From Adineta ricciae (lineage: Eukaryota; Rotifera; Eurotatoria; Adinetida; Adinetidae), in NCBI GenBank assembly GCA_905250025.1, contig CAJNOJ010000098.1, positions 27,123 to 91,122 of the forward strand: DNA of 64,000 bases, written 5' to 3'. This document shows positions 6,653-53,431 of this stretch, in pieces (position 1 is the stretch's first letter; the number at the start of each line of letters is the position of its first letter). The notes below the pieces were generated by a model. That model saw nothing but the letters and a program-made list of their open reading frames with translations. It made no database searches and had not been told where the DNA came from. The translations under genes and the position numbers were made by a program.

Positions 6653-8080
6653 ACGGAGACTAAATGTGCACAAATATCTTGATTAAAAGTAAAATTATTT
6701 GTACTTAGATGATGATACGTTGCATACTTTCAGTCCATTCGATTTATATGAGTGTACTTTGACTAAGTATTGTTAACCCCTTGCAAAAAGGCGGTATATA
6801 TATACATACCATTTCAGATACATCTCAAAACCTAGCAACACTACAGACACAAGATCAGTTTGGAGTGACTTCTGATAGCCAAAATCCACTTCTCTTCAAT
6901 GATCATCATCTCGTGCGAGTTTTCAATTACCGATACGTGCAGAGAACTTAAAGACAGGTACTCAAATCAAACGAAATCTACGTTCTCTTACAGTGTAATG
7001 TTAAGGGATGCTACGAATATATCATATCTCAGCGCACAGGCTATGATGTTGAATAATGCATAGCTAACTGATTTCAGTTTTGTCATCATTCGAAAAATAG
7101 ATCTTAGAGCAAGGGTACAATAGCTGCCTATCATTAGACACCAAATGTACCAGTCCGAATCTGATTGAGAAAATTTGTCAAGCTGGTTATCCTCCGCTTT
7201 TTTACGGCCTCCAATTTGCTATCGTTTCAAGCAGTGTACAGATTTTACATGTAAGCAAGCCATAAACGAAAAACCCTGTTATCAGAGTAATATACAAACA
7301 AGTTCGAGAGTATGCTCCACTGCTTTTTCCCCGATAAAATGTTACAACAAATACTTCCCTGATATTTTCCTGTAGATCAACACTGAGAGTGAATGGAGCT
7401 GATCATAATCGACCAAATAGTTTCTTCTCAGACTACGCTGATCGAGGGAAATGATTAGTCTAACATCGCGATTTGGTGCGCTACTTTTTGACCATTCTCT
7501 CCTCACTGTGCCATTTCAGTCACTTCATTCTACATTGTTTCTTTCCAATGCACCACAGAATTCATAGATAACGGATACATACTATCCTCTCCAAAAACAA
7601 ACTACAAACAAACATAAAAATCCATTATCAAGCTCTCAATACATTTAGGCTTTCGAATCAAGCATAAAACAGCTAGATAATAATGAAACATCGCTCCCAT
7701 TCAATGTACCACGGTCTGATTACCTTCCCTTTGCCAGAACTGACATGTAACATGCATAGGTGCTGTACTCCTGTCGATTCAATTCTGCCGTATCTCCAAT
7801 ATACTCGAGCACTCTGCAGCAATCTTATCTTGTCAATCACACACTTTCAGAAACAAATTCCAATCCAAGAGAACCCCTCATAAACGCACCCTACCATGGC
7901 ACCTCTTCCATCAAACACTCCTCTGTTACACCTTTCTAACTAAACCATTCACTTCCACTATTACACACATATTTTCCCACCACGAAAAGCATTCTCGTTC
8001 AGGTCACATCAACTTCTCGGAACACAATCCATTTTTAATTCATTCACTTTCTCTCAATGTCACCCAAATCACACACCGAA
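6653..8080. other. Left-arm outer flank, no gene recognised
   Basis: The sequence matches 52,000-53,431 in inverse orientation. Small frames in it are not conserved as frames in the other arm, so it looks like 3' flank or decayed sequence. Confidence 0.5.
8073..8080. repeat. Left target-site duplication of the hAT-like element
   Basis: ACACCGAA, repeated at 9169-9176; the same octamer occurs once at the empty site in the right arm. Confidence 0.9.
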
Positions 8081-9168
8081 CAGGGTTACCAACTGTTCAG
8101 GTCTCGAATGGGGTATCAGAGAGAAGAAATGGGGTGCACGAGAGGTACAGCTTTCGTTCAAATAGGGTACACACGTGAGGTACAAAATTTCTTCAAAAAT
8201 ATATTAGATCTATCTGAAGAAGAAGTTCACAAAAAGAGTTATTATTACCGGAAAACCATTTTCTCTTCTCTCTCTGCACGATATGTTGTGAGATGCTTGT
8301 TTTCAGACGAAAAAAGGTCATATAAACAAAATCGAAAAGCACAATAGTTTTTCGATTTTCTTCAAACCAGTTAAAATAGCGGCATGTAAATTTCTCAAAT
8401 GTATGGAGTTTAATCGATTTATGATCGACTGTGACTTCTAGGACGTCGTGAGAAATGTTTATCAAGAAGACTAGTCAATGACAAACGATGCTGCTTTATT
8501 CATAGTTCACTCATCAGATGATGGAATTCCCGTATTGTCGCAACTACGATAATAGTGCCAGAAAACCACGGTTTCGTTTTTAATTGTTTTGCTTTAATCA
8601 ACAATCAATAGTACTTTCACTGTCAAAACCGTACACCGTTCACGATCTTGTAGTGAAAATCAATGAAAGTCATCAGCTTTAGCAACATATATATTTATAG
8701 TTTTATAATTAGTCTAATTACTGACTTGCAGAAGAATCATCGACTCTTTTTTAACTGCTGAGAGAGAATAGTTTAATACGGTCAGTTTGTTTAACTAAAG
8801 CGACATGATCGGTTAATTGTTACCACCTTGTTGAAAGAGTTCCAGAAAATTGTCGATCCTGGAAATAACTCGCGAAATCATCTCTTTAAGAATTCAACCA
8901 AATTCCACGATAAATTTGTGAACTGTTAGGCGATTTTGACGACGTGGTTTTACATTTCTCTTCTCCGCGAAATTCAGGATAGAAGTTGTAGCAAAAAATC
9001 TGTTCTAGTTTTTAATAAAAAGATGCTGTACGTATTGTTTATAAGAGTGTATAGAAGAATGTCGAAATGGGGTACAAAATGCGTACCCCAAAGGTACAAA
9101 TTTTCTTGGGGTGCAAAATAGCGAAATGGGGTGCTGTACCCCCAAATGGGGTACAGTTGGTAACCCTG
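8081..9168. mobile_element. Non-autonomous hAT-like DNA transposon
   Basis: The element has perfect 16-bp terminal inverted repeats: CAGGGTTACCAACTGT at the left end and its reverse complement at the right end. It is flanked by an 8-bp direct repeat, ACACCGAA (8073-8080 and 9169-9176). CAGGG-type ends and an 8-bp duplication are hallmarks of the hAT superfamily. The right arm has the undisturbed empty site with one copy of ACACCGAA. Subterminal zones are rich in GGGGTAC/GGGGTGC motifs in both orientations, as expected for transposase-binding sites. Internal frames are short and resemble no transposase, so it would depend on a transposase in trans. It lies 18 bp beyond the stop codon of the left F-box/LRR gene. 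Confidence 0.92.
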
Positions 9169-9176
9169 ACACCGAA
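9169..9176. repeat. Right target-site duplication of the hAT-like element
   Basis: ACACCGAA, the partner of 8073-8080. Confidence 0.9.
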
Positions 9177-9193
9177 TGATATCCACGAAGTAC

Positions 9194-10956
9194 TCAAACG
9201 AAAAACATCGTTTCTACGAAAAGAGCCACCAGATCAACTATCACTTGTTCTCCCATTCCATTCAGCGCAAGATCTACACCATATTGACGCTCTAAGAATT
9301 AGATAAATGAGATATTCCAAATTTTGTTCCAGCAAAGCATCAGTCTTACTACATTTCTACGCAACGCATCCGCAATGAGTTGCGCTCCTTCATCACCGAT
9401 TTCGTTCCAATCGAGGCTTAGTGTGGTGAGTATCTATAAGCGTGATAGAGACTGAGTTCTTCACCTTCCGTGAAATGAGATCAATATTACCGTGTTCGTT
9501 CGCATCGAATCCGCAATGTGTTCTGCTCCTTTCTCACCGATTCCGTTCCAATAGAGGCTTAGTGTAGTGAGTGTCTGCAGGAGTGATAGAGACTGAGTTC
9601 TTCACCTTCCATGAAAAGGGATCAATATTACCGTGTTCGTTCGCAACGCATCCGCAAGGTGTTGTGCTCCTTCAGCACCGATACTGTTGCTATGGAGGTT
9701 TAGTGTGGTGAGTGTCTGCAGGTGTGATAGAGACTGAGTTCTTCACCTTCTGTGAAATGAGATCAATATTACCGTGTTCGTTCGCAACGCATCCGCAATG
9801 TGTTCTGCTCCTTCAGCACCGATTCTGTTGCCATTTAGGTATAGTGTGGTGAGTGTCTGTAAGTGTGATAGAGATTGAGTTCTTCACCTTCTGTGAAATG
9901 AGATCAATATTACCGTGTTCGTTCGCAACGCATCCGCAAGGTGTTGTGCTCCTTCAGCACCGATTCCGTTCCAACTGAGGTCTAGTGTGGTGAGTGTCTG
10001 CAGGTGTGATAGAGACTGAGTTCTTCACCTTCCATGAAATCAGAACAATATTACCGTGTTCGTTCGCAACGCATCCGCAAGGTGTTGTGCTCCTTCAGCA
10101 CCGATTCTGTTTGAATTGAGGTTTAGTGTGGTGAGTGTCTACATGAAAGCAATATATTATGAGCAGGACAAGTAGCAAAGAGAACCTTTGATGACTCTGT
10201 TGAATGTATATGTGTGAAATGAAATAGTGATGCTTGGGGATGATTTTTAGGGAGCGGTTGGGTCTAGATGTTAGTTTTTTTGTGTGGATGATGATGTTAG
10301 TTGTGGCGCAGGAAAGACTGCGTTCAGAGAAGATGTGCTGTGTTGGCAATATGGAGAGAAGATTACCATGAGCTGATCGATTGGAAACAGTAAGATATAA
10401 TTATTAATAGTTATGGAATGTAGCGAGATATCTCTTTTGAGGGCGGCCTCCAATGAAATTGACATCCTACTCTTGTGATATGTGGGAGTTGGATTAGGTG
10501 TGGATCATAGTGAGAATGAATATAGACGTAGGTCCAGAAATTGTGGATGTTAGTTTGCTGCATTTGAAAAGTGTCATCAAAAGTGATAGTTGATGCACTT
10601 CTGGATCCAATAGTTCAACAGACATATCAGAAAGGCGAGATAGTGGAGGAATGCTTGATTTTATATGAATTCGCACTGTGATTGTCCTATTCGATCAAAT
10701 TGTTCGTGGATTATGAGATTACTCTACCTCTTCCTATGAGGAAATTTACGGCATGAAATATCATTAGGTTTATGTGTAGCACAGCCGACGAGAGTGTTAA
10801 GTTGGCAAGTGAACTTACTCGATATCGCTCATAGGTGTTCAGGATCTTGTTGAGCCGTCGGGAAATATTTTGCATTGAACAAAATAGCGTCTGCTCATTT
10901 TGATGATCCATAATTCGATAAACAAGTTCGACGGGTAATGTGGAAAATGTGTGCAT
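9194..10956 (-). CDS. F-box / leucine-rich-repeat protein, left-arm copy
   Basis: Exon 1 (10,728-10,956, ATG at 10,956) encodes an F-box: FSTLPVELVYRIMDH... followed by SMQNISRRLNKIL. F-box proteins dock substrates to SCF ubiquitin ligases. The C-terminal half is an array of six LRR exons at 10,055-10,138, 9,914-9,997, 9,773-9,856, 9,632-9,715, 9,491-9,574 and 9,350-9,433. Each is exactly 84 nt (28 residues, phase 0, ribonuclease-inhibitor type: LxxLxLxxNxIGxxGAxxLADALRTNT) and they are separated by near-identical 57-bp introns. The last exon (9,194-9,289) ends ...DLVALFVETMFFV-stop. Exon 2 starts at 10,675; its 3' boundary and the segment 10,139-10,490 are unclear, so the central part may be degraded. 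The hAT-like element begins 18 bp past the stop. The paralogue is at 49,942-51,987. Confidence 0.75.
9350..10138 (-). repeat. Tandem array of six LRR exon-intron units (141 bp)
   Basis: Six 84-nt exons with 57-bp introns, starts spaced exactly 141 bp apart (9,350; 9,491; 9,632; 9,773; 9,914; 10,055). It is the counterpart of the eight-unit array in the right arm. Confidence 0.93.
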
Positions 10957-12365
10957 GTCGTATTTCAAATGTGCAGCAGACCGTACCGTAGAGACGTGAA
11001 GCGATGAAAACTGTTTGACTTTGTTCGTTATGAATAGTAACTCATGGTGGTGATGTATTTATATATATTTTTGACGAAAACAAATGACGTGTAATCATTT
11101 CAACAGTTACGAATTGTTGGCGTGCGCAGAAAGATGGCGTTAGAATACACATGCTCATTGAATTCTGTTTTGACATTTAAAATAGAAGTTTTAAGAATTA
11201 AAAGTAGGAAATCTTTTATGCCTTTGACTCCTTTGCAAGCCGATTCGATTTTCTTCAAAAGAAATTGACACCTCTAAATTAATCTTTTTAGCTAAAAAGT
11301 ATAGTGGAAGATAATAAACTCTACAGCGTATACATTATAGATTTATTTTGATTATGTAAATTTTGTTTTCAAGAACGCTAAATACTAACCAGTCAGTTTT
11401 CACTGATTGATTTGCACTATTTGACTTTTTTCAGTAAAAAAAACACATGACTGTATAAGTTTCACGATATAGTTTGCTGAGAGCTTCATGCAGCATCTCT
11501 CAGTGTGTTCGTTTCATTCTTCCCAAGTCTTATTCGATGATAGATAAAAGAAAGAAGAAAAAATGATCGTTTGTCAACCTGAAAAACTAGTCACATGATC
11601 TTTTATTTCTTTTTGAAGTCACAAAATATAAAATTGAGCTATATGGTTTACCGCAGGGGTGACGTTAACTTGAACACTAAAAGTTAAGTTAAATTGCCAC
11701 TCCTAACATATATATCTGTTTTTTGTGTTGAAGAGTGAGTTAGAACACTCAGCAGCATCTTTTACATAAATAGAATGCCAACTCCCTCACTGAGGTGCTC
11801 TAACAATTTGTTGTGAATTCATTTTGATGAATTAATTACCCCATGTCTTTTTAGTAAATAAGAAAACGTGGAAAAACTTCGAAAACAAGGCGTTTAGCTT
11901 ATTGGAAAAGCTAAGCCGCTTTTCAATATGCCCAACAGATGGCTTTAAAGACAGTCATCAAATCTACAAGAACGCTGTAATATCTTACTTTAAAACACTC
12001 GTAGTTCTGTTAACAGGTAACTACCGATTAGTTTCTTACAATACAATAACCATGTCATACATATGCGAGCATTTACAACGAAGAGCAAAAATAGTACCCG
12101 ATTTATTATTTGGCTGTGGAGGATAGTGTTTTATGTAATGTGTGGTATATGTTATATCGATCCATTGTATTTTATTCTGTGCTTTCTGCAATAAATTATG
12201 AAACGAATGGAACTACATGGCTCTAGTGCTTCAGCATCGTTTTTTTTTTACTGAAATACATATTGCTCATATAATTTATCTGAAGATCTATTTTATTGCT
12301 TAATTGATGCGCATTCATATTCTCTCTTATTAGAATTATTTTCCACGATTTGGTTCCGCTGATAA
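10957..12365. other. Left-arm sequence upstream of the F-box gene
   Basis: A TATA-like string (tatatatt near 11,062) lies about 100 bp upstream of the F-box start and is shared with the right arm, so it is a promoter candidate. A 74-codon frame at 11,902-12,126 lacks an ATG and is interrupted in the right arm. No other gene is recognised. Confidence 0.45.
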
Positions 12366-12852
12366 CAACAAGTAACGCTCGTCATTAGACTCGCTCAGCT
12401 CTTTGTCGTAGAAATCTTGATTTCAGATGTCATAGTTTTAATGCATTATTGAGTGTATGTGACAACAGCTACGTTACTTCAGAGTTCGTTTATGAAGATC
12501 AATAATTAACTATTAGATCACAAGAGACTGACGAGAATATTTCATTTACCATACTTATACACTTGACTATATCCGATATCATATGGTTATACATGTTTTT
12601 TTCTTAGAATGGGTACCCTTTGTTTCAAATTTTTTTTTTGTAACTCTCAAAAAAACCCTTTGGTCAATTTTTAGAAAAGAAATTTTTATAAAAAATTCGA
12701 AGAACGAACATCCGATTCGACGTCTCCGCAATGAAGTACCTCTGAAAATATCTTTCTCGAAAAATCGATTTTCGATGTTTTTTTTACCCTGCGGACATAC
12801 AAGCAAGCAAGTAGACAATTTATGTTTGTAAGACTCTTCTCTACGAGAAGGA
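12366..12852 (-). repeat. Dispersed repeat copy C (inner end of the left arm)
   Basis: One of three related copies in the window (also 48,064-48,550 and 54,606-55,332). All share a start resembling CTCTTTCTCGTAGAGAAGAG, itself a near-perfect small hairpin. They also share TTTGTATGTCCGCAGGG with AAACATCGA soon after it, and an end of the form CTACGASAAAGAGCTGAGCGAGTC followed by GAGCGTTAC. The first and last about 14 bp are inverted relatives (CTCTTTCTCGTAGA), suggesting a non-autonomous terminal-repeat element. No coding capacity is seen. Confidence 0.7.
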
Positions 12853-12863
12853 GAATATACGCT

Positions 12864-13169
12864 CTAACCCTTTCTTTCGGAAAAGGGAATATAGGTTGAT
12901 GGTACCATCAGATTGCCGATTACTGTTATATTGTCAGCATACATATGATAACATGTTTCCTGTTGATATCCCAAAATATTGACGGAGCCGCGTTCAATAA
13001 ATAGTGATGGAGATTCAAGTGTACGAGAAATACTCTTCGTAATATCATAACTGCGGCGTATACGTTTAGAACCAAATCTTTTCATATCAATGTCCGCCGA
13101 ATTAGTTGGATAGGCTTCAAGTCGAATATTAATAATACTAAGTACATCACTGGAAATAAATATGTTCTC
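12864..13169 (-). pseudogene. Single exon truncated next to the left arm boundary
   Basis: A clear acceptor (TTCTTATTTTAG) opens an exon encoding ...NIFISSDVLSIINIRLEAYP... and ending ...YIPFSERKG-stop at 12,864, only a few bases from the inner edge of the inverted-repeat arm. The protein has no recognised domain. The stop falls at the junction, so the real C-terminus may have been lost when the arm or its terminal repeat arrived. No upstream exon was identified with confidence. Confidence 0.45.
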
Positions 13170-13741
13170 CTAAAATAAGAAGAATTAGAAAAATTTAAAT
13201 ATACATCTTCAACGAAGTTAAGGCCTAGATCTTATAGAGAAATAGCCGTGGAAAATAGATCGTAAGAACTTCCTTTGCAATAAAATCGATTGAAGTCATG
13301 CAAAATATCTTGGACACCGATTCGACTTTTTCTTGAGCCGATTTGTTCAATATGTGTTCTAACCGAGCTTAAACTGGTTCCGGTCATAAAACTTTTCACC
13401 CTCACCCATACCCTTTCGGTATGATTTTTGGAAGACTATATCAGAGGTTGTCAGATGTATCTATGTCCTCTCCTCCACTAGCGTTTGGAATCTCTATAGC
13501 TGAGATATTTTAGTATTTCGTGAACAATATGGTCAATGGAAGTTATCGGCAATGACATCTTTCATGAATATGGTTCGAGGAATTATGCCGTTTGTCACAA
13601 TTCTAACTGTGAAGGGAATTCTAACTATTACATTTGTTAGCTATGATCCCGTCATTTCTTTAAGCATCATCGAAAGTTTTCGTGATGAGACAATGCAGAG
13701 ACTACATCAAATGATTGCAAGCTGACAATATCAAGCGTATT
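13170..13741. other. Interval between the truncated exon and the receptor gene
   Basis: No coding exon could be supported. It may contain degraded exons of the gene whose last exon is at 12,864-13,169, and the 3' region of the receptor gene. Confidence 0.35.
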
Positions 13742-16700
13742 TTATTCTGACGAACGAAAATATAAACGTCTTCGTAGAATAATGCGATAACGAGTGAGCG
13801 ACTTGTTGAATTGTTTCTTATAAAATTTCGATGGTAATACGAATATAACGAAAGTTAACATCGGAGGAATAAGTGATATGAAATACCCGACGAGAAATAC
13901 CCACATATCATCGATGGATTCCATGCATCGCGATACGTAGGAAATGATCAAACGTGGGAGTGCGAGAACAATTAATGCAATTGGAGCAATTAGTAGATGC
14001 TGATGTTGATGAATTTGTTCTCGAAAAAGATGGAGAAAGCGTTTACGAGTTTGCGTACTGGCCTGTAGATAGGACTTTTTGATGATCAGAATGGCAACAG
14101 AAACAAAGTTTATCACAAATGGTACGAAAAAATTGCATGTATTCATAAAATGATCAAATGTTTGCAGTCTCGATGGGTAAGTAGTAATACACCAAATGCG
14201 TTTCTCGCCACTTTCATTGTCTTCCTCGTCAATTAAACGTCGATGTATAGGATCATGTATCGTTGTACCAATATTAAATATCAAAAGAATGATAATAATT
14301 ATCTTAGCGGTTTGTGTACTTTTATGTTTAATAAAACGAACACCCTGTATTGCAGTCACTGCCCGCTCACAGGCCACACATGCAGCAAGCCATTGATCCA
14401 TATTGAGACAAATGCGAAGAACAAAATCCAGAGTTATGCATTGAATTTGCAAGAACGACCGATTGGATATTGAATTGACCTGCGCAAGGTAAAGTATGAA
14501 GAATTTACATCCTAGCACAGATATTAGGAGTAAAGTCGTAATCGAAGAACACAAGAGATACAAACCACAACCAACCTCACGTACAGCTTTGCTTTGGAAT
14601 GTGATTAACGAAAGAATACCGTCGATAAATCCGATGATAGTGAACATGATGATCAGAATTAAACTCAATTGGACACTAGTTGATTGCTGCAGAATGCTGA
14701 CGTCTGGTCGAATATGATATCCTATAATGGCATCTAATGACAAACCAAACCCACGTGCACTGAATTGACATCGATATCCGTAGAAACAGGATGGACAGAT
14801 GCAAGTTGAATGCCGTGGACAACCTTGAAATTCTTGAAAACAACGACCTTCGTTTTCACAAACGCTTTCACCAGCACAATCAAATTTCATTTGATAATCG
14901 AATTCGAAACAATTGGCCAAACGTTTATCGTTATAATCGTAGCACAGACAAAAATGAACATCATCGTAAAAACACGATCGTTCTGATTGGCATGCCAGGT
15001 GATAAGATTTGATCCGACGGAGTAGATGCCATTGACTGAAGCTTTTATTGAATATTTCACTGACATGTGGACAATAATTTGATGAATTGATCATTCGAGT
15101 TAACATTGTCGATTGTCGGTAGTTGCTTTGAACAAGAGCTAGATAGTAAAGTTTCTCTGGAAAAAATTCAATGAAAACGATATGAAATGGTTGCGACCAA
15201 CGAATAGAAATTGAATCTCGTTGAGAGTGAATTATTTTCGAAGTAGTTGCTGTCACCGGTGTGTTATTCTTGATAATTTCGATGAAATGTATAAGTATCG
15301 ATTTCGTTAACACAATATTTTCAGCAAATGACAAAACAAATTGACTATCTTCGGTCTCACAACGCTCGCCGCTAAAACCTTGCTTGCAGATGCATCGAAA
15401 CTTTCGATCCGACATCATATAGTCATCTGTAGGGACGCACTGGCCTTGATGTTGGCACATGGAATTCTTCTCGGTCGTTTGACATACGGTGTTAATAAGA
15501 CATCGAGGACCAAATTTATTCACGTCGCAAACACATATTGATTGATTGTGAGCCGATGTACCGATACACATGGTTCCCGATTACTTTTGAAAGTGGTGGG
15601 GGCTAAATTTTGCCAGAAAGTCTTTCTGTCAATATTTGATAATAATAACGATAGGCTCTTATTTCAAATGATAATATCTAAGTGAAGCTTCATTTAAAAA
15701 AAAAGAAAAACTACAAATGAATACGTCAATGGCAATATGAAAACTAATGTGTAACAGAAAGTAAAAAGAAAGTTCATAAACGACTCAAANGAAATGTATC
15801 GTTCCGAAAATAACAAACTGTGTTATTGATATGAATTTTGAATGCTTTTTGAAAATAACGATCATAACGAGAATTATTGTAGCATATGTATGGGTATCGA
15901 AAGTCTTGTGATTGATTTTTAATAAAAGCAAAGTAGATATGACTAAATAGGACTGGGACAGCAGGAAAGAAAACCAAATTAGAACATTCGTCGTTTATAA
16001 TTTCAATACAGTCGTCAAGTAGACAAAATCGTGAACAGTACGTGTAATTAAGAAGTTCGAAATCAATTCTACACTTAAGTGCATTCCAACAGGAATCAGA
16101 TATAGAATTGCCTTGAACGGAAAAGATTGATTTGAGAACATTGCTTTGGCGAGACCTACAATCACTTGTTAGAGCGTTCTGTTGACATCGGATATCTTCA
16201 CAATCAAATGACGGTTCATGCAACATACATAGTTTTTGTCTGAACACATCGTAATAACTGTCAAATTCATCAAGACATTCGACAACATTAATGTTATCTT
16301 GAACAAATATTCGAGGAACACACTGACCATTTGGACATTGAAATTCCGTATCTTTACATTGATTCATTTCTAATTGCCAACAATGTTCTTCATCGATTTC
16401 ACTGTCAATGCAGTCAACTTGTCTATTACAAATTTCAGTCCAATCCAAACAAATCGGGTAAGGACCGCGATTACATTGTAAATGTTCGTAGCAGGTCACA
16501 CTGTCCGTTGGGAAAAGATATCGTTTATAAATATCATAAATAATCTCGTGTAATGATGAATAGTTCGAGTTGAAATCATAGAATTCATATTGGCACATAG
16601 GGCCAAACCTGGGAAGTGTACAATTATAGAAAGTTTTTTCTCTTAATGTTGTTGATTTGTATAATTGATTTAAGTACAATTGATAATTTTCGACGGTGTC

Positions 16701-17018
16701 AATTGGTGCTGACCAGAGATACAACTGATCGCTTGTTATATTTTGTTTTGCTAGATCAACAAAACTAAATTTCGAAGAGGAATCATCGTTTATCACGTGG
16801 ACTTTTTCGGACAACTCGTCCATACAGTATGAGATCATTTGATAATAAAACTCCTTGTTATCAACAGTGGCAAGAACGCGTAAGCAATTGTGTTTCACTG
16901 TAATTTTATTGTTTTCTTCAATACTACTTACCGAATCTGTATGATAAAGATTGATTTGAGGTGTAGCAGCAGTCAAATGTACGAACATTGCACATATACA
17001 TAACCCTATGTGTGTCAT
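13742..17018 (-). CDS. LDLa/EGF seven-transmembrane receptor, interrupted by an N at 15,790
   Basis: Two long frames belong to one receptor. The N-terminal piece (17,018 down to 15,791) starts at ATG with a signal peptide (MTHIGLCICAMFVHLTAATP). It continues with an EGF-like end (FGPMCQYEF) and two LDL-receptor class A modules (CLDWTEICNRQVDC...DEEHC, then CKDTEFQCPNGQCVP). The C-terminal piece (15,571 down to 13,742) has EGF-like modules (CVCDVNKFGPRC; CICKQGFSGERC; CICPSCFYGYRC) and seven hydrophobic helices. ACERAVTAIQGVRF stands at the place of the rhodopsin-class DRY region. The single N at 15,790 plus about 200 bp with stops separates the pieces, so sequence is probably missing or misjoined there; I cannot say whether the natural gene is intact. 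Such receptors are abundant in bdelloid rotifers; the ligand is unknown. Confidence 0.75.
15572..15790. other. Assembly gap position and unexplained spacer inside the receptor gene
   Basis: Position 15,790 is N. The 218 bp on its left have stops in the receptor frame and an A-rich tract (15,693-15,706). The in-frame stop 12 nt before the C-terminal piece shows that this spacer is not coding as assembled. Confidence 0.7.
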
Positions 17019-41772: not shown

Positions 41773-42420
41773 GACGTTGGTGAAGTTAGCACCATATTCG
41801 AGTAAAAGCTTTCCATATTCGTTTAGGAATGCGTTCCAACCGTTCCAATCAGCGTTCCAAGTAGAACTCGGCGAGCTCTATCTAATGGTGTATTTATATT
41901 TTCCATAGTTCAAACGATGGTTAAAAAAATTAAAAAATACTTCATTTTTTTACTAAAATGCTGGCACCATATTCGAGTAAAAGCTTTCCATATTCGTTCN
42001 GAACTCGGCGAGCTCTATCTAATGGTGTATTTATATTTTCCATAGTTCAAACGATGGTTAAAAAAATTAAAAAATACTTCATTTTTTTACTAAAATGCTG
42101 GCACCATATTCGAGTAAAAGCTTTCCATATTCGTTCAGGAATGCGTTCCAACCGTTCCAAACAGTGTTCCACGTAGAACTCAACGAGCTCTATCTAGTGG
42201 TATGCTCAGTTTCCCCCATAACTCGAGTTTTTATTTTTAGGCTTCTAATAACGGCAGTACTGATCCAAAAAACCAAAGTTGGGACTAGGTCGCGACTGAG
42301 CATACCACTAGATAGAGCTCGCTGAGTTCTACTTGGAACGCTGTTTGGAACCGTTGGAACGCATTCTTGAACGAATATGGAAAGCTTTTACTCGAATATG
42401 GTGCTAATTTCACCGACGTC
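41773..42420. mobile_element. Foldback-type element with long terminal inverted repeats
   Basis: The left end, starting GACGTTGGTGAAGTTAGC, and the right end, whose complement starts GACGTCGGTGAAATTAGC, match as inverted repeats for about 120 bp (both include ATTCGAGTAAAAGCTTTCC and GCGTTCCAAC). The element is flanked by ATTTATA on both sides (41,766-41,772 and 42,421-42,427), extendable to GTCATTTATA. The left repeat unit is present three times in tandem, two copies being an identical 136-bp block split by an N at 42,000. There is no coding capacity. Long terminal repeats and a 7-10 bp duplication fit a Mutator- or foldback-like non-autonomous element; the superfamily is uncertain. Confidence 0.8.
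41864..42136. repeat. Identical 136-bp tandem duplication separated by an N
   Basis: 41,864-41,999 and 42,001-42,136 are identical as far as I can read (both GAACTCGGCGAGC... to ...CCATATTCGTTC), with the single N at 42,000 between them. This could be a scaffolding artefact or a collapsed longer array. Confidence 0.85.
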
Positions 42421-42427: not shown

Positions 42428-42873
42428 GCGAACTTCTGCTTCCTGTGAAGAGTAATTATCAGTCAGGAATATAGAATAATTAAAAGCAACACAAGTAGTC
42501 CTTTGACTCTTTTGAAGACTGTGAGGCGAATGAAGATCAGTCTCTGGGGACCCTTTCAAAGGTTATACTTCTGTCTTTTTTTTTCATAGAACGCACATAA
42601 GACTATTTTATTTTCAGTCAGTGGTTCAGTCGAGGGCATAGCGAGTCTGCCTCTGTTAGGAACCGTAACGAGCCAAGAAGGAAGAAAACTGTGAACGGGA
42701 CTTCACGAAGAGTTGTATGAAAACCTTTATTGACCAAAAAATGAAAGGAAGAAAAAAAAAGAAAAACAACAACAGGAAGAAAGAACGAGAGCCTAAACGA
42801 AGGATCGTCCATCTATTTAATATAGATGGCGATTCTGACAGTCTCGACGAACGTTACTAGTATTTAAAATAAT
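42428..42873. other. Interval between the foldback element and the SDR gene
   Basis: No gene is seen. A perfect 8-bp hairpin (CCATCTAT-ttaat-ATAGATGG) lies at about 42,809-42,829, just past the SDR stop on its strand, and may mark the 3' end of that gene. Confidence 0.35.
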
Positions 42874-43961
42874 TTATAAATGTTTGGTTTTTTCATTAAT
42901 AATCTTTTCGCTTAATTCCCATAATTCTCGTGCTTTTTTCGAATCATAAGCAATTGAACTTGGTTGGGCTACTCGACAATTAGAATGATATTTTCCAGGT
43001 TGAGCTTCATCTGATAAAGCACAATACAAAGTTGTCATTGCTCCTTGACGTATAGATTTAGAAATTATTTTTGAAAGAAGCGATATAATTAACATCTTAT
43101 AAGATTTGTTATCACGACTTAAGCCTGTTGTTCTAACTCCACCAGGATGAAGTGAATAAGCTTTAATACCTTGATTGCCATAACGTCTTTGTAATTCATT
43201 TACATGTAGAATATTCGCTAATTTTGACTCAGAAACAGCTCGAAAAGGATCATATGAATTACTATGAATAAAATCAGTATTTTCTTTAGCATAAACATGT
43301 CCTTGACTGCTGACATTAACAATACGTCCATTTGATTTGATTAATAATGGTAGAAGAAGTTGAGTTAAATAAAAATGACCAACTAAATAAAAACATACGA
43401 ATATAAATATCTCATTAAATGATATAACATACTATGATTTGTTCCAAAAGTACTTTCTAATCCATCTTTAGTAAATTCTTTATGTTCTTTGATAACACCA
43501 GCATTATTAATTAAAATATCAACTTTATCAATTTTTTCAGCGAACGCTTTTACACTTGCTAAATCAGTTAAATCTAAATTATAACCAATAACATTTCCAT
43601 TTGATTCTTTACTTAATTCTTGAGCAACACGTTCTGCTCGCATTTGATTACGTATACCAACAATAACACGCGCATGAAGTTTAGCTAATTCAATTGCTGT
43701 CATTCGACCAATTCCAGAAGCGGCACCAGTAACAATAACAGTTTGATTATTTAAATTCTTTGTCGATGTATATGAATGACCAGATCTTAATCGTTCATTT
43801 ATTATTCGAAAGATAAAAATTTGAATAATTATATAAATGAATGTATAAGTCCCTGAATGAACAAAAAATATTATAAATATGAATAATAATATATTTCCGA
43901 AGACAAATAGTGCTGATTTAGTCTCTGGTTCTTTTAATGCAATTTTCAATGAAAAAGCCAT
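42874..43961 (-). CDS. Short-chain dehydrogenase/reductase, retinol-dehydrogenase-like, catalytic Tyr absent
   Basis: Exons 43,433-43,961 (ATG at 43,961) and 42,874-43,382 join in frame over a 50-bp intron (...FGTNH-IGHFYLTQLLLPLL...). Two hydrophobic N-terminal segments precede the Rossmann fold. The cofactor motif is VTGAASGIG, followed by LDLTDLASV and ILINNAGV. The family layout is that of RDH11-14/WWOX-type membrane SDRs acting on retinoids or lipids with NADP(H). At the active site, where YxxxK is expected before LAN, the sequence is AVSESKLANIL: Val replaces the catalytic Tyr while Lys is kept. LHPGGVRT follows normally. Either the enzyme is inactive or has a changed role, or a base is wrong. 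The rest of the frame is intact. Confidence 0.88.
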
Positions 43962-46900
43962 TTGACGTATAATAGTTCTTTATTCAACAAAGACAAAGAA
44001 TATGAACGATAAATTAGTCATATGTTTGGTAAGTAGAATACACCACTGAGTTGCCAGTGAAAATATAAGCTTGTTATAGAGGACGCTAATAAAAATTTTT
44101 GACATAACGTAGAATGTCTTAACGTCCATGACTTGTTCTATGATTTATTCGTTCTGATATACTTTTCAAATCTGATCTTACTGACTCTAAATAGAATTTT
44201 ACAACTATAATTAACTAAAAGCAAAATATTCCGTATTTCCCAAGATTAAGAGTCATTGTTAAAGAAGATGTATTTATGAATGAAGAATAGGTCCTCATTC
44301 ACATTTTCTGTTCGATTAGAACGATCTAGGTTATAACGTTAATGTTGATGTACCAGTCACATATTGAATCGTTTCCTCCATAAAATTATTTAACAACAAA
44401 CATATTAACTTTTCATATTTACTTATTCAATGAATTTTACGTCTCTGGAAAGTTTTTTTGAGTATAACTGTTATTAAATGCATCCCGATGATAATGATAT
44501 ATGACAGTGCATTTTGATGCATCATTAAGGAGACTTTATCTTTCATTCTGATGGATTATTTAGTCTTTCAATGTAAAAAAAACAGTCTGGAATCCAGACT
44601 CTGGAGGTTATACATAATTAAAGCGTTATATTTTTTGTAAGATACATGACATGAAATCGTTAACATAAAATATGTATGAACTCAATGATAATGAAGAATC
44701 GATTTATTTTTGAGTAAACTATAGAATGAAAAATTTTATTGCGCATCTCGAAAATAAGCGCAGGAATTCCTTTTTTTATGAGTTAAAGTTTTGACGAAAT
44801 GAGCCATCGAAATTTTATTCTTATTCACAGTATAAAGGAGAAAACGATATATACAAAACTTGACAAGGTGAAACAACGAGTAGTCATCCTATTCCGCGAA
44901 AATACATATTTGGGCATGTCCATGTAAAGTGACACTTCGCTGATTAAGTTTTGAAAACTTGCTTTTCGATAACAGCGTTTCTAAACACTGTTTCAGATGT
45001 AGTTTTTAGCGCTGATTACGAATCTGACGTCTATTTTGTTCGTAGCCGACTTTTTTCTCTAAGAAAATATTTTTTCAGCTTTTTGAGAATCGTATTTTGG
45101 GTTGTCTCAGCAAAAAATTTTCTTAAAACATGTTCTTTTACATGTCATTCGATGCAAAATTTAATTCTCTACAAAATGACATATTAAGGTTTGGGTTTTG
45201 TAGCAAAAGGCGGTTCGTGAGCTCCTTACAAGTTCTCGACTTGTTGCTTCTAATATGAGCTTCTACATGAATATACTGATTGCATTTCCAGATATAAGTC
45301 ATCCCAGCACCGAGTAGACTTACACTTTAAAAAATCACTTCATTCTAAGCATCTTAAGGGTGTGAAAAATGATCAGCAAAAAACTGTGTCACAACGTTAC
45401 GTTTGTATGTCGTATTTTCTGTACGAAATAAAACAGTGAGAAGAAAATCTTTCTTAGCAACACAAAGTCCTTTGAAAGCTCTACAAAACACTGCTTTGTT
45501 ATATTTAATTTGAATAGTATCTTATGAAAGAGTTAACAACGAAAATGATGTACTGCAAGATCAGGGTCCTTTTATGTCACGCGACCCTAAAATAATCGCA
45601 GAAATACAAGAGCTCAACCAAAATCTTTGATTTTTTTATCATTGATAGACTTTAACGAGCTGCATTTACAAGTGTTTGAACGGGATCCGTAACTTTTATA
45701 GTCTTCGAAAAAATCGAAAAATACTTTGTCAAAATTTCACAACGTTACGTTTAGACAAGCCCTACATTGGTGAAATATTAGGCAAAGTTGCTTTGTCGCC
45801 TATTACGTTCCACCAGCTACTGCCAATAGAAGTACGTAAATTCTGTATGACATCGTTCGTACTACCGTTATACTTCACAAACGTATATCTAGATCATTGT
45901 ACCTTGTCAATGTTTTGGCCTTTTGATTTGCCCATATTCGAAGAAATTCCTCCATTCTTTGAATCATTTTTTGCAACAAAAATTAGAATTGGTCGTTATT
46001 TGAATATATATCATGTCACAAAAACATATCAATTTTAAAGCATCCAATAGATAACTAATATATTTCAAAAATGAATTTATAAAGAACACAACTAATAGAT
46101 TTTTCATGGAAATTAGTGATTTTTTAATCTGCAACTGATAGAAAATGAGTGCGTATTGTTAGGTAATATGGCAGAGATAAATCAACGCGATACTAAAAGC
46201 TGCTTATAACTCTAGTCAGCCGTTCCATCACCGATAGCTCAACTTTCTCGATTCTTATGATAAACGAATGTTTGTTTCTCTTGCCCACAGGCACAGTGAT
46301 CACTTTGACGAAACCTTGTATTATCATTACACATTCATACTACATGTTGAGTAAAGCTATTTCTATTCGATTAATATCAAGGAATATTTCCATAGTATAG
46401 TTGTGAACTTATGATACACCAGAAACGACTATTACATCAGTGTTCATCAAGGAGAAATCCGACGAGACACATTTTTAAATGATGAAATTTACTTTTGAGA
46501 AATATAACTATTACATCATGAGACTATGCATCAACACAAAATCTTTGTTAAAATTTTCCAACTGACAGAATCCTTGTTTATCCATCGTAAGTAAATGATT
46601 ATACCATTTAAAATACGTCCGTAGAACATATTTATATAACTTCGAGTGTTCTCTGATATAATGACGCAGTGCCATCGCGAATTGATTATGCTTTCGAGTT
46701 TTTGATCGTTAATTATTGCAATAGTCTACAGAGTGCTACTTGCCAAAAGAGGATAACAACTTAAATACTGTGCTATACTTTAAAGACATTTATATATATA
46801 TATATATATATTTAATAACTTATATCAAGAGATACTTCTAGTTACTAGTACCCAGGTTCAAGTGGATACATCGAAACTGATCGATTCCGTTGAATTTGGA

Positions 46901-48060
46901 TGAGTTCATAACCACAGCATTCCGCTTCGATTTCCGTCGGATAAGTGCCGATCGGTTCCCGTTAGTTCCGGCAGTCGAATCAATTAATCTAGGTATATCT
47001 GAAGACAATTCTTTTTATTGTTGAACATGCTTTTGTGAATGAATGAAATCAAGATAAAAAAAGAAAAAAAATTATACCTCTTCGATATTTGACTTTACAG
47101 ATATATTGCTTGGTATAGAGTCTGATATTCATCAATTTCTTTTACACTTAATTCTGCCATATTTTTTATAAAATGTTTATTTACATGACGCAGGTCGAAC
47201 GATCCGGCACGGAAACGGCCGGTTCCGCCCGAAAATGGTCAGTTTCCTCCGGGACTTGGTCGAAAATTCATGGAATCCTACTTCAGAAACCATCGTCCTG
47301 GAGAACAGCTCTCTATTTTGCTTATCCTTCATAAAAGAGAAAAGAACAAAAAGTATTAAAGTACTACTTCATTTTTCAAATATTTACAGCAAAAACAAAA
47401 GCTTTCAGCGCAATCCCTAACGGGATTAAAAATGTAAAACACGATCCAGCCAGACAAACTTTGAACACATAGAATGCTCAATTTATTTCCCAGTCTGCAT
47501 TCTCATTTATCTAAACTTAAGCTGTTGAAAGCAACATATCATTATCAATAGCGATGTCTGCTGCCTTTTAAGAAATTTTTGCTTCATCGGTCACAATATG
47601 TGATCCTTCTTATCGTGCTTCCATTAACCGATCTCGATCTGGAACGCGAACTACACGTGTCGATGTAATGAAGTTGAGAACGAACCTGTCTGTGAGACAA
47701 TGATACACAGTTCATCTGCCTTTTCCTCTATAAACCTCTATCTCTCCCTCCCCCTCTCTCTCTTTCTTCATTTTTTATGTGTCCACTTTTACAGATATCA
47801 ATGAATAACGGTATCGGCCTGTCGGTAACAGTCTGTGACATGATCTTTGGGCTTGTTTATAAGGGTATTTGACCGGATTTTGGGCCTGTCTGTGATAGGG
47901 TTTTCCCAGCGTCTGTAACGTCTGTGGAGGGGATCCAAATTTCTGCCCCTACACACTTCAACAGTCTCTTTCAGATAGTGTTTCACAAAAAACAGTATCA
48001 TTTTCTGTCAGTTCTCGTCGAGCTTGACATCTTTTCTATGCTCTGATACGCATACACATA
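43962..48060. other. Four-kilobase gene-poor region between the SDR gene and the right arm
   Basis: No gene with family resemblance is seen. A 120-codon plus-strand frame (45,676-46,038) lacks an ATG at its start. Low-complexity features include a (TA)n tract at 46,789-46,811 and a CT-rich tract at 47,735-47,771. GC-richer patches near 46,900-47,000, 47,190-47,270 and 47,800-47,950 carry repeated GTCTGTRA phrases and look like fragments of old mobile elements. Confidence 0.45.
46789..46811. repeat. (TA)n microsatellite
   Basis: About 11 TA units in an intergenic region. Confidence 0.85.
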
Positions 48061-48063
48061 TAA

Positions 48064-48550
48064 TTCTCTTTCTCGTAGAGAAGAGTCTTACAAGGATAAA
48101 TTGTCTACTTGCTTGTTTGTATGTCCGCAGGGTCAAAAAAACATCGAAAATCGATTTTTCGGGAAAGATATTTCCAGAGGTACTTCATTGCGGAGACTTC
48201 GAATCTGATGTTCGTTCTTCGAATTTTTTATAAAAAAATTTGTTTCTAAAAATTGACCAAAGGGTTTTTTGAGAGTTACAAAAAAAATTTGAAACAAAGG
48301 GTACCCATTCTCGGAAAAAAACATGTATAACCATATGATATCGGATATAGTCAAATGTATAAGTATGGTAAATGAAATATTCTCGTCAGTCTCTTGTGAT
48401 CTAATAGTTAATTATTGACCTTCATAAACGAACTCTGAAGTAACGTAGCTGTTGTCACATACACTCAATAATGCATTAAAACTATGACATCTGAAATCAA
48501 GATTTCTACGACAAAGAGCTGAGCGAGTCTAATGACGAGCGTTACCTGTT
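48064..48550 (+). repeat. Dispersed repeat copy B (inner end of the right arm)
   Basis: The counterpart of 12,366-12,852 and a relative of 54,606-55,332. It starts TCTCTTTCTCGTAGAGAAGA and ends near GAGCGTTACC. It lies in the same orientation as the copy at 54,606, so the right arm is bracketed by direct copies. Confidence 0.7.
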
Positions 48551-49941
48551 GTTATCAGCGGAACCAAATCGTGGAAAATAATTCTAGTAAGAGAGAATAT
48601 GAATGCGCATCAATTAAGCAATAAAATAGATTTTCAGACAAATTATATGAGCAATATGTATTTCAGTAAAAGAAAACCGATGCTGAATAACTAGAGCCAT
48701 GTAGTTCCATTCGTTTCATAATTTATTGCAGAAAGCACAGAGTAAAATCCTATGGAACGATACAACATATACCACGCGTATTACATAAAATACTATCCTC
48801 CACAGCCAAATAATAAATCGGGTACTATTTTTGCTCTTCGTTGTAAATGCTCGCATATGTATGACATGGTTATTGTATTGTAAGAAACTAATCGGTAGTT
48901 ATCTGTTAACAGAACTACGAGTGTTTTAAAGTAAGATATTACAGCGTTCTTGTAGATTTGATGATTGTCCTTAAAGCCATCTGTTTATGGGCATATCGAA
49001 AAGCGGCTTCGCTTTTCCAATAAGCTAAACGTCTTGTTTTCGAAGTTTTCCCACGTTTTCTTATTTACTAAAAAGCCATGGGGTAATTAATTCATCAAAA
49101 TGAATTCACAACCAATTGTTAGAGCACCTCAGTGAGGGAGTTGGCATTCTATTTATGTAAAAGATGCTGAGTGTTCTGGCTCACTCTTCAACACAAAAAA
49201 CAGATATATATGTTAGGAGTGGCAAGTTAACGTCACCCCTGCGGTAAATCGTAGCTCAATTTTATATTTTGTGGCTTCAAAAAGAAATAAAAGATCATGT
49301 GACTAGTTTTTCAGGTTGACAAACGATCATTTTTTCTTGTTTCTTTTATCTATCATCGAATAAAACTTAGGAATAACGAAACGAACACACTGAGAGAGCG
49401 AGATGCTGCATGAAGCTCTCAGCAAACTATATCGTGAAACTTTTTACAGTCATGTGTTTTTTTTACTGAAAAAAGTCAAATAGTGCAAATCAATCAGTGA
49501 AAACTGACTGGTTAGTATTTAGCGTTCTTGAAAACAAAATTTACATAATCAAAATAAATCTCTAATGTAAGCTGTAGAGTTTTTTATCTTCCACTATACT
49601 TTTTAGCTAAAAAGATTAATTTAGAGGTGTCCATTTCTTTTGAAGAAAATCGAATCGGCTTGCAAAAGAGTCAAAGGCATAAAAGATTTCCTACTTTTAA
49701 TTCTTAAAACTTCTATTTTAAATGTCAAAACAGAATTCAATGAGCATGTGTATTCTAACGCCATCTTTCTGCGCGCGTCAACAATTCGTAACTGTTGAAA
49801 TGATTACACGTCATTTGTTCTCGTCAAAAATATATATAAATACATCACCACCATGAGTTACTATTCATAACGAACAAAGTCAAACAGTTTTCATCGCTTC
49901 ACGTCTCTACGGTACGGTCTGCTGCACATTTGAAATACGAC
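48551..49941. other. Right-arm sequence upstream of the F-box gene
   Basis: Matches 10,957-12,365 in inverse orientation. It includes the shared TATATATAAATAC string at about 49,830-49,842, about 100 bp before the ATG, a promoter candidate conserved in both arms. No other gene is seen. Confidence 0.5.
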
Positions 49942-51987
49942 ATGCACACATTTTCCACATTACCCGTCGAACTTGTTTATCGAATTATGGATCATCAAAA
50001 TGAGCAGACGCTATTTTGTTCAATGCAAAATATTTCCCGACGGCTCAACAAGATCCTGAACACCTATGAGCGATATCGAGTAAGTTCACTTGCCACCTTA
50101 ACACTCTCGTCGGCTGTGCTACACATAAGCCTAATGATATTTCACGCCGTAAATTTCCTCATGGGAAGAGGTAGAGTAATCTCATAATCCATAAACAATT
50201 TGATCGAATAAGACAATCACAGTGCGAATTCATATAAAATCAAGCATTCCTCCACTATCTCGCCTTTCTGATATGTCTGTTGAACTATTGGATCCAGAAG
50301 TGCATCAACTATCACTTTTGATGACACTTTTCAAATGCAGCGAACTGACATTGACAATTTCTGGACCTACGCCTATATTCATTCTCATTATCATCCACAC
50401 CTAATCCAACTCCCACATATCACAAGAGTAGGATGTCAATTTCATTGGAGGGCGCCCTAAAAAGAGATATCTTGGTACAATCACTAACTATTAATAATTA
50501 TATCTTACTGTTTTCAATCGATCAGCTCACGGTAATCTCCTGTCCATTTTGCCAACACAGCACATCTTCTCTGAACGCAGTCTTTCCTGCGCCACAACTA
50601 ACATCATCATCCACACAAAAAAACTGATATCTAGATCCAACTCCTCTCTAAAAAATCGTCCCCAAACATGAGTATTTCATATCACTCATATACAATCAGA
50701 AATGTAATCAAAGGTTCTCTTTGCTACTTGTCCTTTTCATAATATATTGCTTTCATGTAGACACTCACCGCACTATATCTCGACGCTAACAGAACCGCTG
50801 CTGAAGGAGTACAACACCTTGCGGATGTGTTGCGAAAGAACACGGTAATATCGATTTCATTGCACGGAAGTTGAAGCACTCAGTCTCTCTCACACCTACA
50901 GACACTCATCATACTAACCCTCCGATATGACGGAATCGATGATAAAGGAGCACAACACCTTGCGGATGCGTTGCGAACGAACACGGTAATGCTGATCGCA
51001 TTTGACAGAAGGCGAAGTACTTAGTGTCTCTCACACCTACAGACACTCACCATACTAGATCTCGGCAGTAACGGAATCGGTGCTGAAGGAGCAGAACACA
51101 TTGCGGATGCGTTACGAACGAACGCGGTAATGCTGATCGCATTTGACAGAAGGCGAAGTACTTAGTGTCTCTCACACCTACAGACACTCACCGCACTAGA
51201 TCTCGGCAATAACGAAATCGATGATAAAGGAGCACAACACATTGCGGATGCGTTGCGAACGAACGCGGTAATATTGACCTGATTTCATGGAAGGTGAAGA
51301 ACTCAGTCTCTATCACACCTGCAGACACTCACCACACTAAACCTCTATCGGAACAAAATCGGTGCTGAAGGAGCACAACACCTTGCGGATGCGTTGCGAA
51401 CGAACACGGTAATATCGATCTCATTGCACGGAAGTTGAAGCACTCAGTCTCTCTCACACTTACAGACACTCACCAGACTAACCCTCCGATATGACGGAAT
51501 CGGTGATAAAGGAGCACAACACCTTGCGGATGCGTTGCGAACGAACACGGTAATATTGATCTCATTTCAGAGAAGATGAAGAACTCAGTCTCTCTCACGC
51601 CTGCAGACACTCACCGCACTAAACCTAAATGGTAACAGAATCGGTGATAAAGGAGCAGAACACATCGTGGATGCGTTGCGAACGAACACGGTAATATCGA
51701 TCTCATTTCGTGGAAGGTGATGTAGTCAGTCTCTCTCACACTTACAGACACTCACCTCACTGGAACTCGGCAATAACGAAATCAGTGCTGAAGGAGCACA
51801 ACTCATTGCGGACGCCTTGCGGAGAAATGTAGTAAGACTGATGCTTTGCTGGAACAAAATTTGGAATATCTCATTTATCTAATTCTTACAGCGCCAATAT
51901 GGTGTAGATCTTGCGCTGAATGGAATGGGAAAACAAGTGATAGTTGATCTGATGGCTTTTCTCGTAGAAACGATGTTTTTCGCTTGA
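49942..51987 (+). CDS. F-box / leucine-rich-repeat protein, right-arm copy
   Basis: Exon 1 (49,942-50,170) encodes the same F-box as the left copy; I see three substitutions in the 81 codons from ATG to the frame end (Asn/Thr, Asn/Ser, Ile/Met). A 52-bp intron leads into exon 2 at 50,223 (VRIHIKSSIPPLSRLS...). Eight LRR exons follow at 50,761, 50,902, 51,043, 51,184, 51,325, 51,466, 51,607 and 51,748, each 84 nt with 57-bp introns, giving an exact 141-bp period. A last exon at 51,892-51,987 ends ...VDLMAFLVETMFFA-stop. Each LRR is a 28-residue ribonuclease-inhibitor-type repeat, a curved binding surface that would select substrates for an SCF ubiquitin ligase. The segment 50,405-50,760 has stops in the expected frames; it may be intron or decay. 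Confidence 0.75.
50761..51831 (+). repeat. Tandem array of eight LRR exon-intron units (141 bp)
   Basis: Eight exons of 84 nt separated by seven introns of 57 bp. The introns are as similar between units as the exons (GTAATATYGATYTSATTT ... CACACYTRCAG), so whole exon-plus-intron units were duplicated. The left arm has six such units at 9,350-10,138. Confidence 0.93.
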
Positions 51988-53431
51988 GTACTTCGTGGAT
52001 ATCATTCGGTGTGTGATTTGGGTGACATTGAGAGAAAGTAAATGAATTAAAAATGAATTGTGTTGTGAGAAGTTGATGTGACCTGAACGAGAATGCTTTT
52101 TGTGGTGGGAAAATATGTGTGTAATAGTGGAAGTGAATGCTTTCGTTAGGAAGGTGTAGCAGAGGAGTGTTTGATGGAAGAGGTGCCATGGTAGGGTGCG
52201 TTTATGAGGGGTTCTCTTGGATTGAAATTTGTTTGTGAAAGTGTGTGATTGACAAGATAAGATTACTGCGGACTGCTCGAGTATATTGGAGATATCGCAG
52301 AATTGAACCGATAGGAGTACGGCAGGTATGCATTTTACATGTCAGTTCTGGTAAAGGCAAGGTGATCAGACTATGGTATATTGAATGAGAGTGGTGATTC
52401 ATTAGTGTCGAGCTTTTTTATGTTTGATTCTAGAGCCTAAATGTATTGGGAGCTTGATAATGAAGTGATATGTTTGTTTGTAATTTGTTTTTGGAGAGGA
52501 TAGTATGTATCCGTTATCTATGAATTCTGTGGTGCATTGGAAAGAAACAATGTAGTATAAAGTGACTAAAATGGCACAGTGAAGAGAGAATGGTCAAAAA
52601 GTAGCGCACCAAAACGCGCTGTTAGACTAATCATTTCCCTCGATCAGCGTAGTCCGAGAAGAAGCTATTTTGTCGATTATGATCAGCTCCATTCACTCTC
52701 AGTGTTGATCCACAGGAAAATATCAGGGAAGTATTTGTTGTAACATTTTATCGAGGAAAAAGCAGTGGAGCATACTCTCGAACTTGTTTGTATATTACTC
52801 TGATAACAGGGTTTTTCGTTTATGGCTTGCTTACATGTAAAATTTATACACTGCTTGAAACGATAGCAAATTGGAGGCCGTAAGAAAAGCGGAGGATAAC
52901 CAGCTTGACAAATTTTCTCAATCAGATTCGGACTGGTACATTTGGTGTCTAATGATAGGCAGCTATTGTACCCTTGCTCTAAGATCTATTTTTCGAATGA
53001 TGACAAAACTGAAATCAGTTAGCTATGCATTATTCAACATCATAGCCTGTGCGCTGAGATATGATATATTCGTAGCATCCCTTAACATTACACTGTAAGA
53101 GAACGTAGATTTCGTTTGATTTGAGTACCTGTCTTTGAGTTCTCTGCACGTATCGGTGATTGAAACCTCGCACGAAATGATGATCATTGAAGAGAAGTGG
53201 ATTTTGGCTATCAGAAGTCACTCCAAACTGATCTTGTGTCTGTAGTGTTGCTAGGTTTTGAGATGTATCTGAAATGGTATGTATATACACCGCCTTTTTG
53301 CAAAAGATTAACAGTACTTAGTCAAAGTACACTCATATAAATCGAATGGACTGAAAGTATGCAAAGTGTCATCATTTAAGTACAAATAATTTTACTCTTA
53401 ATCAAGATATTTGTACACATTTAGTCTCCGT
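51988..53431. other. Right-arm outer flank, no gene recognised
   Basis: Matches the left-arm outer flank. It contains the uninterrupted hAT target site shortly after the F-box/LRR stop. Small frames differ between arms and are not supported. Confidence 0.5.

Follow-up and report, generated by a model that had tools for sequence, protein, structure and literature searches.

On Saccharomyces chromosome XIV, the left and right copies of the flip/flop inverted repeats mostly cluster within a strain and not by position, a pattern read as homogenisation in the sections of the report drawn on here (PMC9731477). Helentrons and HINEs such as DINE-1, as a second report describes them in part of its text, have subterminal inverted repeats and a 3' palindrome and insert at a T without a target-site duplication; it is suggested there that they take up host sequence through composite elements or end bypass (PMC4067079). 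In the bdelloid rotifer Adineta vaga, excerpts of a third report describe Penelope-mediated spread of nonribosomal peptide synthetase (NRPS) and leucine-rich repeat (LRR) genes (PMC3846280). The published assembly of Adineta ricciae has a GC content of 35.6% and a mean KS of 0.135 between homologues, and the excerpted text records no allelic palindromes detected in it (PMC5916493). The subject here is a 64,000-nucleotide stretch of an A. ricciae assembly (the window; C98:27,123-91,122), in which two copies of a putative gene-carrying Helentron-type element face each other.

These copies, called arm 1 and arm 2, are likely to be Helentron-type insertions in opposite orientation that have been homogenised by gene conversion within the chromosome since the haplotypes split. 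This account draws on the observed family copies and their termini, the insertion junctions shared between haplotypes, the pairing of arms within haplotypes and the mismatch-free tracts between them. Two insertions of one composite family, about 35 kb apart, would have been in place before the split of C98 from its allelic contig, C239. After the split, the arms on each chromosome would have repeatedly copied sequence to each other while the haplotypes drifted apart. Transposition would have been by rolling circle, the gene cargo might have been captured by run-through from a first to a second HINE, and the sister or same chromatid might serve as the repair template.

The facing arms and their allelic contig

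The genome searched is a 130-Mb assembly of 1,033 contigs, and the window has a GC content of 35.4%, which, like the marked divergence between alleles and the gaps in the scaffolds, agrees with the published A. ricciae assembly (PMC5916493). The preliminary description placed reverse-complementary arms at 6,653 to 12,857 and 48,061 to 53,431, and self-comparison recovers them near these positions; terminus mapping sets the bounds at 6,653 to 12,854 and 48,065 to 53,431. Arm 1 appears to be a 3'-truncated composite Helentron-type element on the reverse strand (6,653 to 12,854), with its 5' terminus at 12,854 facing the spacer and its other end cut at 6,653. Arm 2 appears to be a complete composite element on the forward strand (48,065 to 55,331), with its 5' terminus at 48,065 likewise facing the spacer and its 3' terminus, ACTTG followed by T, at 55,331. 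The right arm as first described is the part of this element up to 53,431. Of the outer edges described earlier as sharp, that at 53,431 lies inside the right-hand element, which runs on to 55,331, and that at 6,653 is a truncation.

The arms are 95-96% identical outside the variable LRR array. Ungapped identity is 94.95% (1,426 bp), 95.8% (191 bp) and 96.0% (2,680 bp) in three blocks that omit the array and a hAT-like insert; across the array (9,337 to 10,236) it is lower, at 74-89% per 100-column step. The near-identity of the F-box exon region, given earlier as about 7 mismatches in about 290 bp, is closely matched by 4 mismatches in 333 aligned bp. The arms are long, as claimed, but their shared length is about 5.1-5.4 kb and not 5-6 kb, because arm 1 holds the hAT-like insert of 1,088 bp.

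Contig C239 runs collinear with the window, at 88-94% identity in the left flank, 91-96% at the start of the spacer and 87-93% in the right flank, and bears both insertions. Its first copy, C239a, has the 5' junction of arm 1, and its second, C239b, has the 3' junction of arm 2. Both junctions are common to C98 and C239, which dates the insertions to before the haplotype split, and because C239 is collinear on both sides, the linkage within the window is supported. The spacer between the two 5' ends (12,855 to 48,064) was assembled across single-N gaps at 15,790 and 42,000, the only Ns in the window; neither arm nor its immediate flanks contain any. The earlier proposal that the arms could invert the whole block is not demonstrated by these two haplotypes of one genome, which are collinear and carry the spacer in the same orientation. 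Homogenisation does not require that the spacer occur in both orientations.

An inverted segmental duplication, that is, an allelic palindrome as in the 2013 A. vaga assembly, would also put facing arms on one scaffold of a bdelloid genome. However, transposon termini bound arm 2 and the inner side of arm 1, the arms have dozens of family relatives, and C239 carries the alleles of both arms in the same order, which makes this origin scarcely credible. The comparison with A. vaga drawn in the preliminary description is not supported: the alleles are on another contig, and the arms, judged by their sequences, are copies of a dispersed Helentron-type element and not a private palindrome. What had been observed is mostly right, and the explanation changes to facing gene-carrying Helentron-type copies that stay alike within the chromosome.

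Pairing of the arms within haplotypes

Plain divergence predicts that arm 1 is nearest to C239a. The observed pairs are instead arm 1 with arm 2, and C239a with C239b. Among 137 sites in N-free blocks at which the four sequences divide two against two, 134 show haplotype pairing, 2 show site pairing and 1 shows the third pattern. Expressed as AABB/ABAB/ABBA, the informative sites number 85/1/1 in the right block and 49/1/0 in the left block. Only N-free pieces were counted, and C239b 140,038 to 141,099 was excluded. The 99.7% identity of C239a and C239b in the left block was rejected as evidence, since this piece of C239b lies between Ns and duplicates its neighbour. Elsewhere, arm 1 equals arm 2 at 32 sites of the flank-anchored 5' segment (versus 10 and 11 for the other pairings), and C239a equals C239b at 45 sites of the outer extension (versus 16 and 16) and at 23 sites of the 3' HINE, HINE2 (versus 12 and 10).

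Trees give the same pairs, with support of 100/99 both for arm 1 with arm 2 and for C239a with C239b. The approximately unbiased (AU) test rejects the pairing of arm 1 with C239a (p 1e-5) and of arm 2 with C239b (p 7e-78). The main tree has 23 rows, C627, C188 and C100 having been dropped because their aligned pieces were too short; a second tree of 26 rows restores C627 and C188 and adds C239c, and C100 is not included. As a positive control, unpaired copies at the same site, recognised by shared 5' flanks (C255/C157 and C103/C563), are sisters in the tree, so the method recovers ordinary orthology there.

It is possible to ask whether such pairing reflects assembly, with arms misplaced or misphased so that two alleles of a single insertion pass for the arms of one haplotype. 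Such an artefact would fit the single-N joins present in both contigs and the duplicated patch of C239b. However, arms 1 and 2 share TTAC and GTCTACT, both absent from the nine other copies shown, at most 45 bp from their different 5' flanks, and among 48 3' ends only those of C239a and C239b have a particular base (GAGTCTCTAG), which stands 18 nt from the terminus. Given diagnostic variants 18-45 bp from unique flanks, within short-read length, misjoining is unlikely. The window arms and their immediate flanks are also N-free, the pattern occurs in both haplotypes and similar pairs lie on two other contigs, and the two unpaired allelic insertions behave normally. An artefact of this kind is therefore considered improbable.

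Two long tracts between the arms lack mismatches. The first, of 289 bp (6,950 to 7,238), is interrupted only by a 1-bp gap at 7,202 and is 89-93% identical in 14 other copies; the second, of 275 bp (10,803 to 11,077), is fully identical between the arms and 86-93% identical in 19 other copies. In permutations, a mismatch-free tract of 289 bp was reached in 0 of 5,000 trials and one of 275 bp in 5 of 5,000. Since the same tracts are only 86-93% identical in other copies, constraint does not explain them, and they are probably recent conversion tracts. Haplotype pairing and mismatch-free tracts together indicate that the arms evolve in concert within each haplotype. The earlier suggestion that the arms could convert each other gains support from this haplotype-specific homogenisation and from the tracts, for both of which gene conversion between the arms would be the simplest account.

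Similar arrangements occur at other loci. An inverted pair on C7 (1,018,264 to 1,023,234 and 1,072,933 to 1,077,142, about 50 kb apart) is 95.6% identical in the left block, and one on C440 (13,055 to 20,458 and 67,582 to 68,951, about 47 kb apart) is 95.5% identical there. Their members are only 85-90% identical to other copies compared, and C7a and C7b are sisters in the tree (100/99). In both pairs the 3' ends face each other, opposite to the arrangement in the window. Conversion at C7 and C440 is only suggested, because no allelic contig was identified for either; a unique allelic flank sought for C7 proved to be itself repeated.

These pairs also bear on a reading without conversion, in which a nearby copy recently transposed over a short distance, in inverse orientation, to form the pair independently in the two haplotypes. 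Same-contig pairs do exceed chance: a hand-compiled list gives six within 55 kb, five of them inverted, against about 0.8 expected, a count in which the C98 and C239 pairs, being allelic, lack independence. Identity is also about 95% within each of the C98, C7 and C440 pairs. However, both junctions are common to the two haplotypes, so that the insertions predate the haplotype split, and arm-arm identity (95-96%) exceeds that of the allelic flanks (89-92%). Separate local transposition is thus decidedly unlikely.

Several observations weigh against this account of the arms. A single clade of all four arms is rejected (p 0.0002), and C28 groups with arms 1 and 2, a position that can be accounted for by its later transposition from the C98 lineage or by exchange involving other copies. 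Two pairs of copies on different contigs look mosaic: C774 (L029) and C28 (L031) are 96.0% identical in the left block and 89.5% in the right, and C627 (L027) and C187 (L039) are 93.2% and 87.7% identical, respectively. Exchange may therefore reach beyond facing pairs. A third copy on C239 (C239c; 155,185 to 157,435) is only 88% like C239a and C239b and has a long branch, yet groups with them (96/95), again a hint that facing pairs may not be the only copies to exchange sequence. The assembly appears to be scaffolded, with single Ns at 15,790 and 42,000 in the window and at C239:106,821 and 140,037, and C239b 140,038 to 141,099 is bounded by Ns, is 99.6% identical to C239a and looks like a patch. 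When longer stretches with the array are compared, identity between C239a and C239b is only 90%; in the right block it is 94%. Allelic flank identity near the arms is low and uneven (88.9% and 92.2%), so that arms compared across haplotypes, at about 88%, are only a little less alike than the flanks. Finally, the case for conversion is built on assembled sequence.

Long life without ordinary sex has its textbook example in the bdelloid rotifers, for which the choice of template in DNA repair is an open question. An insertion pair common to two haplotypes provides four sequences with which to gauge repair from an arm's own inverted partner against repair from the homologue, and here the partner on the same chromosome is favoured, by 134 informative sites to 2. 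More speculatively, inverted transposon copies that lie 30-50 kb from each other on one chromosome might exchange sequence faster than homologues do, and at several loci (C98/C239, C7 and C440). A repertoire of transposon-borne LRR genes, variable in their ligand-side residues and with as many as 18 LRR exons, might then be both kept and reshuffled by arm-to-arm copying and possibly by occasional flips of the block. We hold this broader proposal only tentatively.

Element ends, gene cargo and other window features

The composite unit consists of a 5' HINE, an F-box-like/LRR gene region and a 3' HINE. HINE1, a short non-autonomous Helentron-type element, occupies 12,369 to 12,854 on the reverse strand in arm 1 and 48,065 to 48,548 (484 bp) on the forward strand in arm 2. 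HINE2 (722 bp; 54,610 to 55,331, forward strand) lies at the 3' end of the complete element. Nine relatives of HINE2 at other places were fetched, one of which (C21) adjoins a gene-bearing copy.

The genome matches at least 65 stretches with a query from the left part of the element and at least 71 with one from the right part, arms included. A copy list compiled by hand from these searches comprises at least 43 copies on 38 contigs; a second subfamily (74-85% identical; for example, C152, C172, C104, C322 and C745) was left out of this list and of the trees. The 5' end, TCTCTTTCTCGTAGAGAAGAGTC, is preceded by a host T in all 11 gene-bearing copies shown, and the flanks beside it differ among loci, save for three same-site pairs. 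Of 11 left ends tested, 9 have the 3' end, ACTTG followed by T, and there is no match in C1 and C627. Genome-wide, exact 5' termini number 61 and 3' termini with at most one mismatch number 48, and a reversed-pattern control gave 0.

Short elements matching the terminal pieces also occur elsewhere, with lengths of 0.75-1.5 kb in the six measured, five of which have a T directly before the 5' end. HINE2 has a subterminal inverted repeat, with a 5' part TCTCTTTCTCGTAGAGA and a 3' part TCTACGAGAAAGAG located 30 nt from the 3' end; with mismatches allowed, the 5' part is present in 8 of 9 fetched short copies and the 3' part in 9 of 9. A palindrome, AGCGAGTCGCT, stops 16 nt before the 3' end of HINE2 and is substituted in some other copies. 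When the flanks of the six solo HINEs were joined, one pair (C79) matched 20 copies running across the insertion point, and all four of these empty sites fetched have a single T and no longer target-site duplication; the flank-pair search gave no empty sites for the other five. A reading of the two direct terminal repeats as long terminal repeats was rejected, as the ends and the empty site fit a Helentron.

An alternative for the class of element, although one that leaves the conversion argument untouched, is a Penelope-type mobile unit in which an intron-bearing LRR gene is framed by direct pseudo-LTRs with a palindrome, an arrangement known from A. vaga (PMC3846280). The element does have an intron-bearing LRR gene between two direct repeats, and a hairpin in its outer end. 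Against this, the single empty-site comparison, at C79, reveals no target-site duplication beyond one T, and the 3' subterminal inverted copy of the 5' end and the 3' palindrome fit Helentron ends; a Penelope-type unit is accordingly very unlikely.

Two points also tell against a Helentron-type element. One of the six solo HINEs (L052) has no T directly before TCTC, and no Rep/helicase copy is linked to these termini. In the search for an autonomous Rep/helicase partner, 37 matches to PF14214 were found on 29 contigs, none of which is among the 52 contigs with the 61 exact 5' ends. Two PF14214 contigs also hold a 3' end, on the opposite strand in C676 and about 26 kb away in C167. The assignment to the Helentron class therefore rests on structure, because no Rep/helicase copy is tied to these ends.

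The gene region begins with an F-box-like exon of 46 codons. In arm 1 it lies at 10,819 to 10,956 on the reverse strand, within the 275-bp tract identical between the arms, and in arm 2 at 49,942 to 50,079 on the forward strand, encoding an identical protein. The F-box name is tentative because the Pfam F-box-like score is 13.3 bits, under the cut-off of 24.3. Thus, the duplicated unit, described earlier as an F-box/LRR gene with its flanks, has the stated content, but is bounded by Helentron-type ends and carries an F-box label below the Pfam cut-off. The LRR array comprises six LRR exons found in arm 1 (9,360 to 10,143, reverse strand) and eight in arm 2 (50,756 to 51,821, forward strand), where the joined exons match Pfam LRR_6 with E=6e-40. 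Each 141-bp unit consists of an 84-bp exon, encoding a 28-amino-acid LRR, and a 57-bp intron predicted from the reading frame. An attempt to model every exon lying between the F-box-like exon and the array did not resolve the frames.

Both the F-box-like exon and the LRR exons are open in all 22 copies examined for coding. The pooled ratio of nonsynonymous to synonymous substitution rates (dN/dS) of the F-box-like exon is about 0.22 over all pairs, which are non-independent. Of 207 LRR exon matches, 156 full units (84 bp, 28 amino acids; 21 copies) were scored, and stops are absent from all of them. Variation peaks at positions 6, 8, 9 and 11 (entropy 2.3-3.5 bits), which we take to be exposed strand residues in LRR proteins. 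The number of LRR exon matches per copy ranges from 4 to 18, and low counts may be partial because some fetched loci are cut inside the array. Highly variable positions within a frame that stays open give the LRR exons the look of a transposon-borne recognition repertoire undergoing diversification. The case as a whole suggests that an LRR gene family, apparently open, has been multiplied by Helentron-type elements.

Several other features lie in or beside the arms. The hAT-like insertion (8,081 to 9,168; 1,088 bp) has the terminal inverted repeat CAGGGTTACCAACTG and an 8-bp duplication, ACACCGAA, on both flanks, and is found only in arm 1, being missing from arm 2 and from C239a. The segment adjoining the truncated end of arm 1 (6,127 to 6,652, about 525 bp) is 92% like C723:15,103-15,640, and it may be the cause of the truncation. 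Within the spacer, described earlier as a block of single-copy genes, at least one gene does not fit that description, the region at about 13,800 to 15,380 having relatives of 64-70% identity on more than 10 other contigs. The single N at 42,000 is flanked by 136 identical bp (41,864 to 41,999 and 42,001 to 42,136), and beside it 42,101 to 42,404 is self-complementary (83% identical to its own reverse complement); the region from 41,773 to 42,420 looks like an unmerged scaffold join at a palindromic repeat. The end of the spacer (43,000 to 48,060) is rich in dispersed repeats, with matches at 72-95% on dozens of contigs. It has no match to C239 in the repeat search and one 253-bp match at 83% in another comparison.

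Comparison with known systems

Among the matches listed in open-licence literature, considered by titles and abstract openings, there is no report of Helentron-borne inverted pairs in bdelloids. The A. vaga palindromes of 2013 are likewise facing duplicated blocks on one scaffold; as portrayed in the excerpted text, they are allelic gene blocks, unlike the transposon-type copies described here, whose alleles are on another contig (PMC5916493). The A. vaga Penelope case, within the portion of the report used, also involves a class of transposon multiplying an intron-bearing LRR gene in a bdelloid, whereas the present element has other ends, no target-site duplication and many more copies (PMC3846280).

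The present element has the end features and the insertion at T that part of the Helentron and HINE report describes. In contrast to the elements covered there, it carries an F-box-like/LRR gene, many of whose exons are open, and this cargo has been amplified to tens of copies (PMC4067079).

The closest parallel appears to be the flip/flop inverted repeats of yeast. In both cases, inverted copies of several kilobases flank a gene block of a few tens of kilobases. According to the sections of the report drawn on, the yeast copies are native gene pairs and the block flips, whereas the arms in A. ricciae are of transposon type, with many relatives, and no flip is seen (PMC9731477). The yeast comparison is also one among strains, whereas the pairing described here is between two haplotypes of one animal genome (PMC9731477).

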